Source: a virus. From it: a DNA stretch of 25,579 nucleotides. Shown piece after piece: positions 2,550-19,971 of this stretch. Under the pieces are notes generated by a model, which had not been told where the DNA came from, made no database searches, and saw only the letters and a list, made by a program, of their open reading frames with translations. The position numbers and the translations under genes are program-made. Location of the stretch: the IMG/VR virus record IMGVR_UViG_3300042503_001556, positions 1-25,579 of that record; one strand, given 5' to 3'. Positions within the stretch are counted from its first letter, which is position 1. The number at the start of each line of letters is the position of its first letter.

Positions 2550-2923
2550 ATCAATTCTTTTAAAATGTAATTAAATGCTGCTGAATAGGCTTCTTTTGGC
2601 GACTTAAACTTGTATTCTTCTCCGTTCAAAACCATGTAGTATTCTTCGTTGCTATTATCATAGTAAACCTCAATCCAAACACCATGATTAACCCTTAACC
2701 ATTCAACTACTTGCCATTGTTCAGGTCTTGAAATAGTTCCATTTATATTGTTAATATCGTTAATAGGAGAATTATAATTTATTTCGTTGCCATAATAATA
2801 ATAATCTTTAGGAGTAAATTCTTCTGATGTAGTATAATAAGATTTAACATCTATGTTAAAATTTTTTTCTTTAAGCAATTTAGCTTGTTCAAAGGTCACG
2901 TATGTTGGTTGTATGTTTTTCAT
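2546..2923 (-). CDS. Conserved phage protein, divergent paralogue of the 1271-1654 product
   Basis: The protein begins MKNIQPTYVTFEQAKLLKEK, has 'RPEQWQVVEWLRVNHGVWIEV' in the middle and ends 'SPKEAYSAAFNYILKELI'. The order of elements (start helix with 'F/YEQAxxLKExxF', central 'QxxxxWLRxxxG', C-terminal 'EAYxAAxxYIL') matches the gene at 1271-1654 and a family frequent in Bacteroidota phages. It overlaps the following gene start by 4 bases and begins 1 base after the upstream stop (2925). Function unknown; likely cytoplasmic. Confidence 0.8.
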   Translation of the reverse strand: MKNIQPTYVTFEQAKLLKEKNFNIDVKSYYTTSEEFTPKDYYYYGNEINYNSPINDINNINGTISRPEQWQVVEWLRVNHGVWIEVYYDNSNEEYYMVLNGEEYKFKSPKEAYSAAFNYILKELI

Positions 2924-2924
2924 A

Positions 2925-3143
2925 TCAAATATTTATATGTTTATCATCTCTTAATGCTACAACCCATCTTATTATAGTCATAACAAGCATTCCTATTGTT
3001 ATAAAAAATAACATTACATAAACAAGAGTCAAATTTACATCAGATTGACAAAATGTTAACTTATACCATTGTAAAAATGGAATCATAAATAAAGGAAAAG
3101 CTAATAATGTTATAGTGTGAATAATTGCAATAATGTATTTCAT
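2925..3143 (-). CDS. Small membrane protein with two predicted spans
   Basis: The start is placed at ATG 3143 (MKYIIAIIHTITLLAFPLFM), 14 bases after the upstream stop at 3158-3160; the in-frame ATG at 3167 would overlap the upstream gene. Two hydrophobic segments are clear: about residues 3-24 and about residues 38-62 (LVYVMLFFITIGMLVMTIIRW), followed by a charged tail (RDDKHINI). A short polar loop separates them. It is adjacent to a second membrane protein gene, so the two may act together at the host inner membrane, for example in superinfection exclusion or lysis control. That role is inference from context only. Confidence 0.7.
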   Translation of the reverse strand: MKYIIAIIHTITLLAFPLFMIPFLQWYKLTFCQSDVNLTLVYVMLFFITIGMLVMTIIRWVVALRDDKHINI

Positions 3144-3157
3144 ATGTTTTAGTTTTA

Positions 3158-3625
3158 TTATTTCCAATTAATTTTAGGACAATTTTTATTATAAACTGAT
3201 TTAGTGTAACTTATTATGATATTATTTTTTAAATTATTTTCTAAATAATAAGATTTATCACATAAATAATTATATATTACAACTGCTCCTAAAAATACTA
3301 AAATTAAACCACCACAAAGAGCTGCTGAACTATCATAACTATAAGCATCAAATAAATACATAAAAAAATGAAACAAAGAATACGTTATAATTGTAAAAGT
3401 ACATAATAGAAGCCATATAAATCCACCTAATAAACTAGATTCTTTTTCAATTCTTTTATTGAAAATACTTCCTATAACTAAAGGTAAACGTAAAATAAAA
3501 TTTGGTATAAATAATATTATTGCTAATATTAATTTCCAAAAGAAGGGACACAAGTTACTTGGTAAATTTTCGTTATATGTATAATTCCATAACCATACAT
3601 ACCATGAGTTTAGTTTTAATTCCAT
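3158..3625 (-). CDS. Multi-pass membrane protein (~155 aa)
   Basis: I favour the start at ATG 3625 (MELKLNSWYVWLWNYTYNEN) because its leader (aataaacaaaaca) matches leaders of other genes here, such as the one at 21071. A longer frame back to 3703 adds 26 basic residues. Hydrophobic stretches are visible at about residues 30-52 (ILAIILFIPNFILRLPLVIG), 66-90 (LLGGFIWLLLCTFTIITYSL) and 104-122 (AALCGGLILVFLGAVVIYNY). The opening 'LNSWYVWLWNY...LPSNLCPFFWKL' pattern resembles short membrane proteins I associate with Bacteroidota phages, where function is unknown. If the long start is used, the gene overlaps the 3' end of the structured region upstream. Confidence 0.7.
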   Translation of the reverse strand: MELKLNSWYVWLWNYTYNENLPSNLCPFFWKLILAIILFIPNFILRLPLVIGSIFNKRIEKESSLLGGFIWLLLCTFTIITYSLFHFFMYLFDAYSYDSSAALCGGLILVFLGAVVIYNYLCDKSYYLENNLKNNIIISYTKSVYNKNCPKINWK

Positions 3626-3676
3626 TGTTTTGTTTATTAATTTTTTAATTGATTTTTGTTTAGCACCCTCTTTCTT

Positions 3677-4631
3677 ACTTAGCTTTTCTAAGTCCATCTT
3701 CACGTTTTACGGTTTGACGATTTCCATCAGACTTCAATCTTATTGGAACATATAAGAGTAGGGTCACGTAGTTAATGCCCGCCTTTCTCCCTGTACTTTT
3801 GGGCGGAATACTTTATTTATCAGGGTTTTTAACTACTTGCTGAGAACTCATTTGTGTTGTAGTGGTTTATTAGCACTCTTTCCAAATACATTCCTTTCTC
3901 AAGGGAACAACACATTTATCATTACTGATAATATTCTTATTTAAAGTCGTGTCAATGTTTTACGACTTATAAGTTATAATAAATGGTTTTTATGTTACCA
4001 CCAACGAAACTTAAATACAATAGTTTACGACAAATGCTGGATTAACCAGATAATTTAATTAAGACACCTAAAACTATTGCAAAGCCCAATCTACTTATAG
4101 TTAACCACATCTATTGTGTGAGTCAGAATCATACATCCTATATAAGTTTAGCTTGTTTAAATAGAAACTAGTGTCTCTAACATCTTAAAAAGAGTTAAGT
4201 TTTTTGTTTTGCAGGTTGTTATCATTATGCAACTGAACACAATAGTTTAATGTGTTGTAATGGCTTTACATTACTTTATGCATAACTATCCGTTTAAAGG
4301 CTATCAGATTACCTTGTAGAGTATTTATTATTTACTACTACACGTTTACCCTTATGCATTCAGTTGTATAATATGTTCCTGAAGTAACTCTCAAGGTTAG
4401 TCTGTACATTTCTGTACTATCTTATCCTTTGCTTAGCATAGCTCATCACTATGTCTACATCTTTCTAGATAATCCCTCAATGTTTTTGCTTTTTGGAATC
4501 CATATATTATACAACTGAACAACTTAGTTGTAATTCTCGGTCTATACACGAGGCTTTGATATTATCTCATCTTACAACTTTGTATTATGCTTAGGATATT
4601 AATTAAGCCTTTTTATATCATGCTTAGGATA
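3677..4631 (-). ncRNA. Candidate very large structured noncoding RNA (~900 nt)
   Basis: No plausible gene lies in 3704-4636, yet the stretch is full of ordered complementary segments. Perfect pairs: 4359-4374 with 4504-4519 (16 bp), 4526-4533/4572-4579 (8), 4278-4285/4352-4359 (8), 4018-4026/4071-4079 (9), 3853-3860/3907-3914 (8), 3768-3775/3829-3836 (8), 3944-3950/3962-3968 (7), 3916-3921/3926-3931 (6), 4257-4262/4269-4274 (6), 4236-4241/4251-4256 (6), plus 4315-4323/4333-4342 (9 with one bulge). A pseudoknot is possible: 3789-3793 with 3821-3825 across 3779-3783/3802-3806. Read leftward, two hairpins are capped by GNRA loops, GUAA (3922-3925) and GAAA (4409-4412), which together with the flanking gene orientation favours the minus strand. 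A few pairs would be G-U only on the plus strand, so the strand is not certain. Length, phage context and complexity recall the GOLLD and ROOL RNA classes; I cannot assign a family. Confidence 0.62.
4587..4631. repeat. Direct repeat ATGCTTAGGATA, two copies
   Basis: The 12-base sequence ATGCTTAGGATA occurs at 4587-4598 and again at 4620-4631, 33 bases apart, at the lipoprotein-gene edge of the structured noncoding region. A related GCTTAGCAT lies at 4431-4439 and TATCCT at 4423-4428, so either copy could pair with that segment. It could be a processing or regulatory site for the RNA or part of its terminal helix; undecided. Confidence 0.6.
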
Positions 4632-4636
4632 GGAAG

Positions 4637-4915
4637 TTATTTAACGATTACAACTTTATAATAATCTACATAATTGTATGAACTATCAATATAATATTTG
4701 ATAGGTAAACCTTCAGGTATTATGCCTACATATTTACCAACAATTTCAGAATTATTTCTTGTTGAACGTACTAATACAGTATCATTTATGTAAAATTCGT
4801 AATCAATAGATGATTGTACTTCTTGCATTTTACCATTCTCGTATTGAACGATGTAGTTTTTAGTGCAGCTTACTAACCCAGTTAGTAATAGTGCGATTAA
4901 TGTGAGTTTTTTCAC
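4637..4915 (-). CDS. Small lipoprotein, 92 aa
   Basis: The protein starts MKKLTLIALLLTGLVSCTKN: a short basic n-region, a hydrophobic core and a lipobox LVSC with the lipidated Cys at residue 17. It would be exported and anchored by signal peptidase II processing. The mature part (about 75 residues) is polar and strand-rich (YIVQYENGKMQEVQSSIDY; NDTVLVRSTRNNSEIVGKY; YYKVVIVK) and resembles a small OB/SH3-like barrel by pattern only. Phage lipoproteins of this size are known in superinfection exclusion and host-surface modification, so that is a reasonable guess. It has its own structured leader upstream and the large noncoding RNA directly downstream, which may be its co-transcribed tail. Confidence 0.8.
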   Translation of the reverse strand: MKKLTLIALLLTGLVSCTKNYIVQYENGKMQEVQSSIDYEFYINDTVLVRSTRNNSEIVGKYVGIIPEGLPIKYYIDSSYNYVDYYKVVIVK

Positions 4916-5013
4916 AGAATTATATTGTTTTTAAATTTAAAATGATTGGAAATGTATAGTTTATTTAAGGGAATTGTTGTTGGAAGTGTTATATAAATAT
5001 AGTGTAATTTTGT

Positions 5014-5096
5014 ATTGATACTTGGGGAAACAACCTAAAACTAGGCTTGGTTGTCTCCCAGTCAAATATCTAGTGTACACTTCACACAGTATCAGT
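5014..5096 (-). promoter_or_regulatory. Structured leader upstream of the lipoprotein gene (three-way junction)
   Basis: An outer stem pairs 5014-5022 with 5088-5096 (9 bp, one wobble). Inside it, a long hairpin pairs 5025-5035 with 5049-5059 (11 bp; the one non-Watson-Crick position is G-U when read leftward) and a second arm holds the palindrome AGTGTACACT (5072-5081). A further hairpin lies beside it (5107-5113/5135-5141, with 5116-5120/5124-5128 nested inside). It lies in the 316 bases between a terminator (5212-5227) and the lipoprotein start (4915), so read leftward it is a 5' untranslated leader. It may be a regulatory RNA or cis-element; no known riboswitch class is recognised. Confidence 0.5.
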
Positions 5097-5151
5097 TAGT
5101 TATGTTATGAAATGTAAAGTGTTACTTTAACTAAATTTCATTATAACTTAT

Positions 5152-5174
5152 TGATTATCATTTAATGATTATCA
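5152..5174. promoter_or_regulatory. Tandem operator-like sites TGATTATCA (two copies)
   Basis: TGATTATCA, an interrupted palindrome (TGAT-T-ATCA), occurs at 5152-5160 and 5166-5174, start-to-start 14 bases apart. A third copy lies at 5896-5904 next to the rightward promoter. The spacing and shared sequence suggest binding sites for one phage or host repressor that would control both the lipoprotein/noncoding RNA unit and the rightward arm. The protein is unknown; the winged-helix product of 5987-6445 is a candidate. Confidence 0.5.
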
Positions 5175-5211
5175 GTTAATTATATTTAATGAAGAGGGTA
5201 TATTAAAATAA

Positions 5212-5227
5212 AGAGCCCGAAGGCTCT
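5212..5227 (-). terminator. Rho-independent terminator with UUCG tetraloop
   Basis: Read leftward, AGAGCC-TTCG-GGCTCT forms a 6-bp stem closed by the very stable C(UUCG)G loop, followed by a T-rich run (TTATTTTAATA in 5201-5211). It starts 4 bases beyond the 3' end of the gene at 5232-5528, so it ends that gene's transcript and separates it from the lipoprotein unit. Confidence 0.85.
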
Positions 5228-5231
5228 ATTA

Positions 5232-5528
5232 TTAAAATCCAAAATCTTCAGCAGTAGCTGTTTCAGCACCAACCAAATGACTCATAGTAATGATAACACC
5301 GTCTGCTGTTTTAGTAGCAGTAGTAAGGTATTCATTACCTATAATCATTCCGTAAGCGAAGTTGTTATCATAGACAATAGCTTGTCTTGTAACTAATTCG
5401 CCATTAATGTTTGGAAATTCAACAGTTGCATTACGAAACATTGTTCCGTTAACATTAGGTTTAGCATTAGCACTAACGCTAATTAATTTAGCAATAAATT
5501 GCTTTTGTGTGTCGTTTAAATTTTTCAT
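5232..5528 (-). CDS. Hypothetical protein, 98 aa, own transcription unit
   Basis: The frame starts at ATG 5528 (MKNLNDTQKQFIAKLISVSA) and ends at 5232. Residues 1-20 are likely helical. The rest is strand-rich (NATVEFPNINGELVTRQAIV; FAYGMIIGNEYL; DGVIITMSHLVGAETATAEDFGF) and ends in an acidic tail. It contains no Cys, signal peptide or membrane segment. It is the first leftward gene from the divergent control region, is followed at once by a strong terminator, and is preceded by a structured leader. This layout fits a highly or separately expressed early protein. Family not recognised. Confidence 0.75.
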   Translation of the reverse strand: MKNLNDTQKQFIAKLISVSANAKPNVNGTMFRNATVEFPNINGELVTRQAIVYDNNFAYGMIIGNEYLTTATKTADGVIITMSHLVGAETATAEDFGF

Positions 5529-19886: not shown

Positions 19887-19959
<73 letters not shown>

Positions 19960-19971
19960 CATTAAAATATT

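Follow-up and report, generated by a model that had tools for sequence, protein, structure and literature searches.

GOLLD (RF02032) and ROOL are the closest described systems to the RNA reported here. GOLLD, a phage-borne structured RNA of tRNA islands with many members longer than 800 nt, forms a closed 14-mer cage. ROOL, which is carried by phages and prophages near tRNA islands, contains pseudoknots and is 659 nt long in one example. Both are RNA-only cages encoded near tRNA islands (PMC12286853). Further points of comparison are offered by tmRNA (RF00023, RF04321), a pseudoknotted stable RNA, and by the group I and group II introns.

The window analysed here, the whole 25,579-nt stretch of IMG/VR record IMGVR_UViG_3300042503_001556, comes from a crAss-like phage and is a fragment covering 25.6 kb; the PHROG matches are 6681 for the terminase, 6547 for the portal and 11589 for the major head protein. 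A first-pass annotation of the letters had drawn a single branched RNA of about 930 nt at 3677-4631 and suggested that it might be a relative of GOLLD or ROOL, or else a new class. The region is two things: a conserved structured RNA of 309 nt on the minus strand (3968-3660), which takes up its left third, and a variable upstream segment (4636-3969). The RNA resembles GOLLD as a phage-borne structured RNA of tRNA islands, and differs from it in its smaller size and in the absence of a GOLLD model match in the window. It resembles ROOL in its phage setting near tRNA islands and its putative pseudoknot, whereas ROOL is larger and its model misses the motifs that define the new family. The RNA lies in the same gene islands as tmRNA, which follows it in many phages, yet it has neither a tRNA-like end nor a tag reading frame, and tmRNA is a separate downstream gene. 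With group I and II introns it shares a GNRA loop, the putative pseudoknot and an occasional HNH ORF in a loop; unlike them, it lacks the conserved intron core and lies outside split genes.

Searches against known RNA families

All 4227 Rfam families were searched, with E ≤ 10 for the window region, E ≤ 1 for 13 loci and gathering thresholds for 20. Rfam 15 gave no relevant match in 3600-5300 of the window at E ≤ 10 and, at E ≤ 0.1, nothing except one tRNA in the whole window. The GOLLD covariance model found nothing in the window at E ≤ 0.1 or in 3600-5300 at E ≤ 10. ROOL was not matched at any threshold tried (window region, 13 loci, 20 loci), and the group I and II intron models had no match in the window region or in the homologues searched. 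ARAGORN and Rfam detected no tmRNA in the window. The RNA is thus absent from Rfam 15, in keeping with its earlier description as an uncharacterised structured RNA of a phage, and the suggested kinship with GOLLD or ROOL was not borne out at the locus or in the homologues. A limited literature search of open-access PMC text returned no description of this RNA.

The gene-free stretch

The locus lies in a leftward gene block of the phage, directly after a lipoprotein-like ORF that ends at 4637 on the minus strand, a setting that had been recognized correctly. The GTG at 3703 that is listed as the start of the next leftward ORF extends it too far: its homologue in locus L007 starts at an ATG equivalent to window position 3625, and the gene-free stretch is therefore really 4636-3626. 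No convincing ORF was found within 3704-4636 with the standard code or with TAG read as Q or TGA as W, and a coding gene rescued by reassignment of either stop codon was rejected. The reported lack of a gene was upheld in this way, and neither of the alternatives raised with it, a coding gene or a group I/II intron, was detected.

Architecture of the conserved RNA

The conserved structured RNA (3660-3968, minus strand, as are all of its elements) begins with hairpin H0 and ends with GGGUGCUAA. Its 5' boundary was placed at H0 because tRNAs end 1-6 nt before this hairpin in several loci and the words shared among relatives stop there. The distance is 1, 3 and 6 nt in L046, L142 and L144, respectively, and L004, L017, L076 and L077 likewise show the 3' end of a tRNA immediately ahead of H0. 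Past the 3' boundary lie unrelated sequence, genes or tmRNA. In relatives the RNA is about 300-450 nt long with a conserved core of about 200 nt, so that the term "giant" does not apply.

H0 (3944-3968) pairs AAGUCGU with ACGACUU around the conserved loop AAACAUUGA; its stem varies with pairing kept, and is 81.6% fully paired versus 53.7% after shuffling. Hairpin P1 (3916-3931) has the form UUAUCA-GUAA-UGAUAA and is capped by a GNRA tetraloop. The strands of helix P2 are UGUGUUG (3908-3914) and CAACACA (3853-3859), and P2 encloses hairpin P3 (3891-3907, UUCC-CUUGAGAAA-GGAA). The P3 loop contains UUGAGAA (3896-3902), which is 99% complementary to UUCUCAG at 3846-3840, the most conserved element of the family; these two segments are the predicted strands of a pseudoknot. 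Hairpin P4 (3768-3836, GUAGUUA ... UAACUAC) carries a variable insert. It occurs in paired variants such as GCAATTA/TAATTGC and GATGATC/GATCATT, and the whole hairpin is cleanly missing from 13 loci. A putative closing helix, P5 (3665-3764, ACCCU ... AGGGU, also with a variable insert), is almost invariant with near-universal complementarity. Most relatives have an additional covarying helix, P0b, between H0 and P1, which the window subtype does not possess.

Covariation was assessed in an alignment of 59 diverse sequences, including the window, selected by the 17-mer GAGTTCTCAGCAAGTAG. This selection fixes the pseudoknot strand and none of the three covarying helices. P1, P2 and P3 showed compensatory changes at 6/6, 7/7 and 4/4 pairs, that is, at all 17 nested core pairs, and P2 was paired in 99% of cases. 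For the whole structure with the pseudoknot included, 96.7% of cells were paired compared with 79.2% in shuffles, double-change cells numbered 199 versus 38.6, and the covariation score was 0.441 compared with at most 0.100 when partners were slid. Given no structural guidance, RNAalifold recovered P1 and P2, whose 13 pairs all carried compensatory changes. The first-pass annotation had reported two GNRA hairpins; one was confirmed, the P1 hairpin with its GUAA loop (3931-3916, minus strand), whose loop is GNRA in 59/59 homologues. Nearly all sequences keep the P3 loop complementary to UUCUCAG, and no pair changes on both sides. Since the pseudoknot and P5 barely vary, covariation cannot confirm either, and both are putative.

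The minimum-energy fold of window positions 3970-3660 alone shows H0, P1, P2, P3, P4 and P5. Folding energy was ordinary for the composition (z = -1.8 for the whole minus strand, z = -1.5 for the 311-nt core) and was set aside as uninformative. The window combines covarying P1, P2 and P3, the GNRA loop, CUUGAGAAAG and GUUCUCAGC, and scored 120.5 bits with R1, a covariance model built from the 59 sequences with the window among them. The covariation establishes, with very little room for doubt, that the conserved structured RNA family is real.

The variable upstream segment

Conservation and covariation cover only 3968-3660, and membership of the segment at 3969-4636 (minus strand) in the conserved RNA is unsupported. 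The segment is treated as separate because about 40 other contigs have its hairpin CCTAAGCATGAT in a different context, and the 5' segment was accordingly rejected as part of a single large RNA. The inverted repeats described earlier are present. Those of 6-9 bp are expected by chance, and the 16-bp pair (arms at 4359-4374 and 4504-4519) is beyond it, none of 300 first-order Markov shuffles reaching 16 bp. This pair lies outside the conserved RNA, at the edges of a window-specific segment of 153 nt (4521-4369).

A sister phage, L003 (IMG/VR contig 3300044858_003746), matches the window at about 98-99% identity over the parts that both possess and has about 2.35 kb in place of these 153 nt. The stretch that the 16-bp repeat flanks (~4369-4521) is thus missing from a near-identical phage. 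The extra piece in L003 holds two small ORFs and a full-length match to GOLLD, whose score of 103 bits (E = 3e-27) falls short of the curated cut-off, 150. The guess at GOLLD was near the mark and wrong for the window: a GOLLD occupies the same intergenic position in its sister. The difference is most simply read as the product of recombination at a short repeated motif, ACAACTGA; misassembly in either record may also account for it.

A hairpin-like intergenic element, CCTAAGCATGATRTAAAA(CT/AG)GCTT, was also observed in the window at 4628-4604 on the minus strand, with a partial second copy at 4595-4582. The element was seen in 45 IMG/VR contigs, frequently in intergenic positions or ahead of a start codon, and corresponds to no Rfam family.

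Distribution among phages

Among named phages, blastn identified one relative, Cellulophaga phage phi14:2, whose locus is annotated only with tiny opposite-strand ORFs (small hypothetical proteins); its copy would span some 450 nt at roughly 2912-3359 of KC821624.1. Of the 99 IMG/VR stretches that contain GAGTTCTCAGCAAGTAG, the 17-mer with the highest conservation, 98 are homologues; the exception, L033, is coding-like. Scans with the 5' hairpin and the 3' end added about 58 further loci, confirmed by the covariance model, for a total of about 155 IMG/VR contigs. These are uncultured phage sequences, mostly crAss-like. The scans require exact matches, which limits claims of absence to the patterns used and means that the true number of carriers is larger. 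Among bacteria and archaea, 84,980 species were scanned with an 18-mer; only three matches came up, which are attributed to chance because flanking structure was absent from all of them.

A crAss-like portal was present in 38 of 50 contigs tested. In carriers of 153-373 kb, tests for the portal, terminase and head protein of crAss-like phages were negative wherever made; these carriers resemble jumbo phages of an unrelated kind, and their contigs are possibly incomplete. The family thus consists of undescribed compact structured RNAs of crAss-like and jumbo phages. Several other named phages, crAss-like or related, scored at most 22 bits and were taken as being without the RNA (crAss001, cr60_1, cr115_1, cr125_1, cr10_1, cr118_1, ProJPt-Bp1, Fpv2 and phi13:2). 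Since the RNA is apparently missing from the cultured and gut crAss-like phages examined, the group does not depend on it.

Contigs usually have a single copy and in rare cases two or three. Two copies about 340-700 nt apart were seen in L006, L035, L039, L051 and L095; in L006 and L039 the common type is paired with a second subtype whose P3 loop contains UGAGAUA. One variable-loop cassette is found inside the RNA of L131, L137 (a 373-kb contig) and L142, in jumbo and smaller contigs alike, which suggests exchange between phage groups. ORFs of the HNH type were noted inside the RNA of L149 (10480-11230) and L153 (~4500-5140), and in L149 the RNA resumes past the ORF.

Gene neighbourhood and proposed role

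All 69 tRNA and tmRNA genes detected within 1.5 kb of the RNA lie on its strand, and tRNA genes are only about 1.4 times as dense near the RNA as in the remainder of the fetched stretches. In 16 of 114 loci the pseudoknot motif is followed, 97-321 nt downstream, by the start of a tmRNA with a normal tag peptide; most loci are without a detected tmRNA. The linkage to tmRNA may reflect shared ancestry rather than shared function. Matches to permuted tmRNA were observed in L040, L153 and the contigs of L013, L054 and L048, several of them just downstream of the RNA. The proximity to tRNA islands that characterizes GOLLD is therefore seen at the level of the family; in the window no tRNA or tmRNA adjoins the RNA, and the sole tRNA is a tRNA-Met (CAT) at 19887-19960.

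Our preferred reading, which joins the family and its fold to a mode of processing and a role in translation, is given a probability of roughly 0.45 as a whole. The core is made up of the 5' hairpin H0, the GNRA hairpin P1, P2 enclosing P3, an optional P4 and the putative closing helix P5. Pairing of the P3 loop with UUCUCAG just past P2 would hold this core in a pseudoknotted fold, with the GNRA loop perhaps docked onto another helix. The RNA would be transcribed with the neighbouring leftward genes or, in relatives, with the tRNA and tmRNA genes, and would then be cut out by host RNA-processing enzymes. Such excision is suggested by the 5' hairpin, which begins 1-6 nt past a tRNA end, and by the tmRNA that follows the 3' end, in several phages. 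The released RNA would act in trans as part of the phage translation kit, on ribosomes, tmRNA or tRNAs during infection. This last part is held tentatively, at a little under even odds, and is the most likely role on account of the translation-gene islands, the proximity to tmRNA and the compact conserved core.

Self-assembly into a homo-oligomeric cage or scaffold, as an ornate RNA like GOLLD and ROOL and unrelated to them in sequence, would also suit the setting, since phages, tRNA islands, variable peripheral loops and a GNRA loop are common to all three. GOLLD itself occurs at the same intergenic site in L003 and about 1.5 kb away in L171, where it scores 250 bits on the same strand as the new RNA. 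The L171 match, at 3961-4386 on the minus strand, precedes an array of over 20 tRNA genes. A search of 93 contigs for GOLLD returned only L003, L171 having been found separately. Because both RNAs co-occur in L003 and L171, they are regarded as separate RNAs that share RNA islands. The conserved core of about 200 nt is far smaller than GOLLD or ROOL, matches neither in Rfam and has no conserved self-complementary loops that could be identified, which makes a cage improbable.

A role in cis, as a leader of the transcript downstream or as an element in its processing, is judged equally improbable. The RNA ends close to the next gene (3660 versus the ATG at 3625 in the window) or to tmRNA, and always shares the strand of its tRNA and tmRNA neighbours, as such an element would. 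Against this, the downstream neighbours vary (a membrane protein, tmRNA, tRNA and others), the neighbouring family seen most often is about 1.5 kb away and present in 30 of 114 loci, and no terminator-like hairpin was found at the RNA end.

Slightly less probable again is a function against host defence, in which the RNA might, for example, serve as a decoy for immune proteins that cut tRNA or sense RNA. It would fit the phage-only distribution and the position among tRNA genes; strong conservation of the core across phage groups is unusual for arms-race genes. Hairpins like a tRNA T-arm were in weak excess in the variable loops (11 versus 5.7 ± 2.1), and the claim of T-arm mimicry was dropped. 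The least probable reading is a mobile or intron-like element spread by homing endonucleases, to which the HNH-type ORFs in L149 and L153, the loop cassettes common to unrelated contigs and the presence in two phage groups might point, and against which stand the lack of any group I/II intron match, the location outside split genes, the usual single copy per phage and the absence of an HNH ORF from most copies.

The translation role also has a stronger form, in which a new class of RNA in crAss-like and jumbo phages would seize or safeguard translation together with phage-encoded tmRNA and tRNAs, in a way that no known RNA does; this is considered rather unlikely, though less so than any of the rival readings. 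The record of phi14:2 contains annotation errors, in that small hypothetical proteins are listed over the RNA. To our knowledge, few phage RNAs of this kind are known (GOLLD, ROOL), and these are still unexplained. Structured RNAs conserved across some 155 phage contigs and two phage groups are rare, and since this one is small, has a well-defined core and is present in the cultured phage phi14:2, its expression, structure and role are directly testable.
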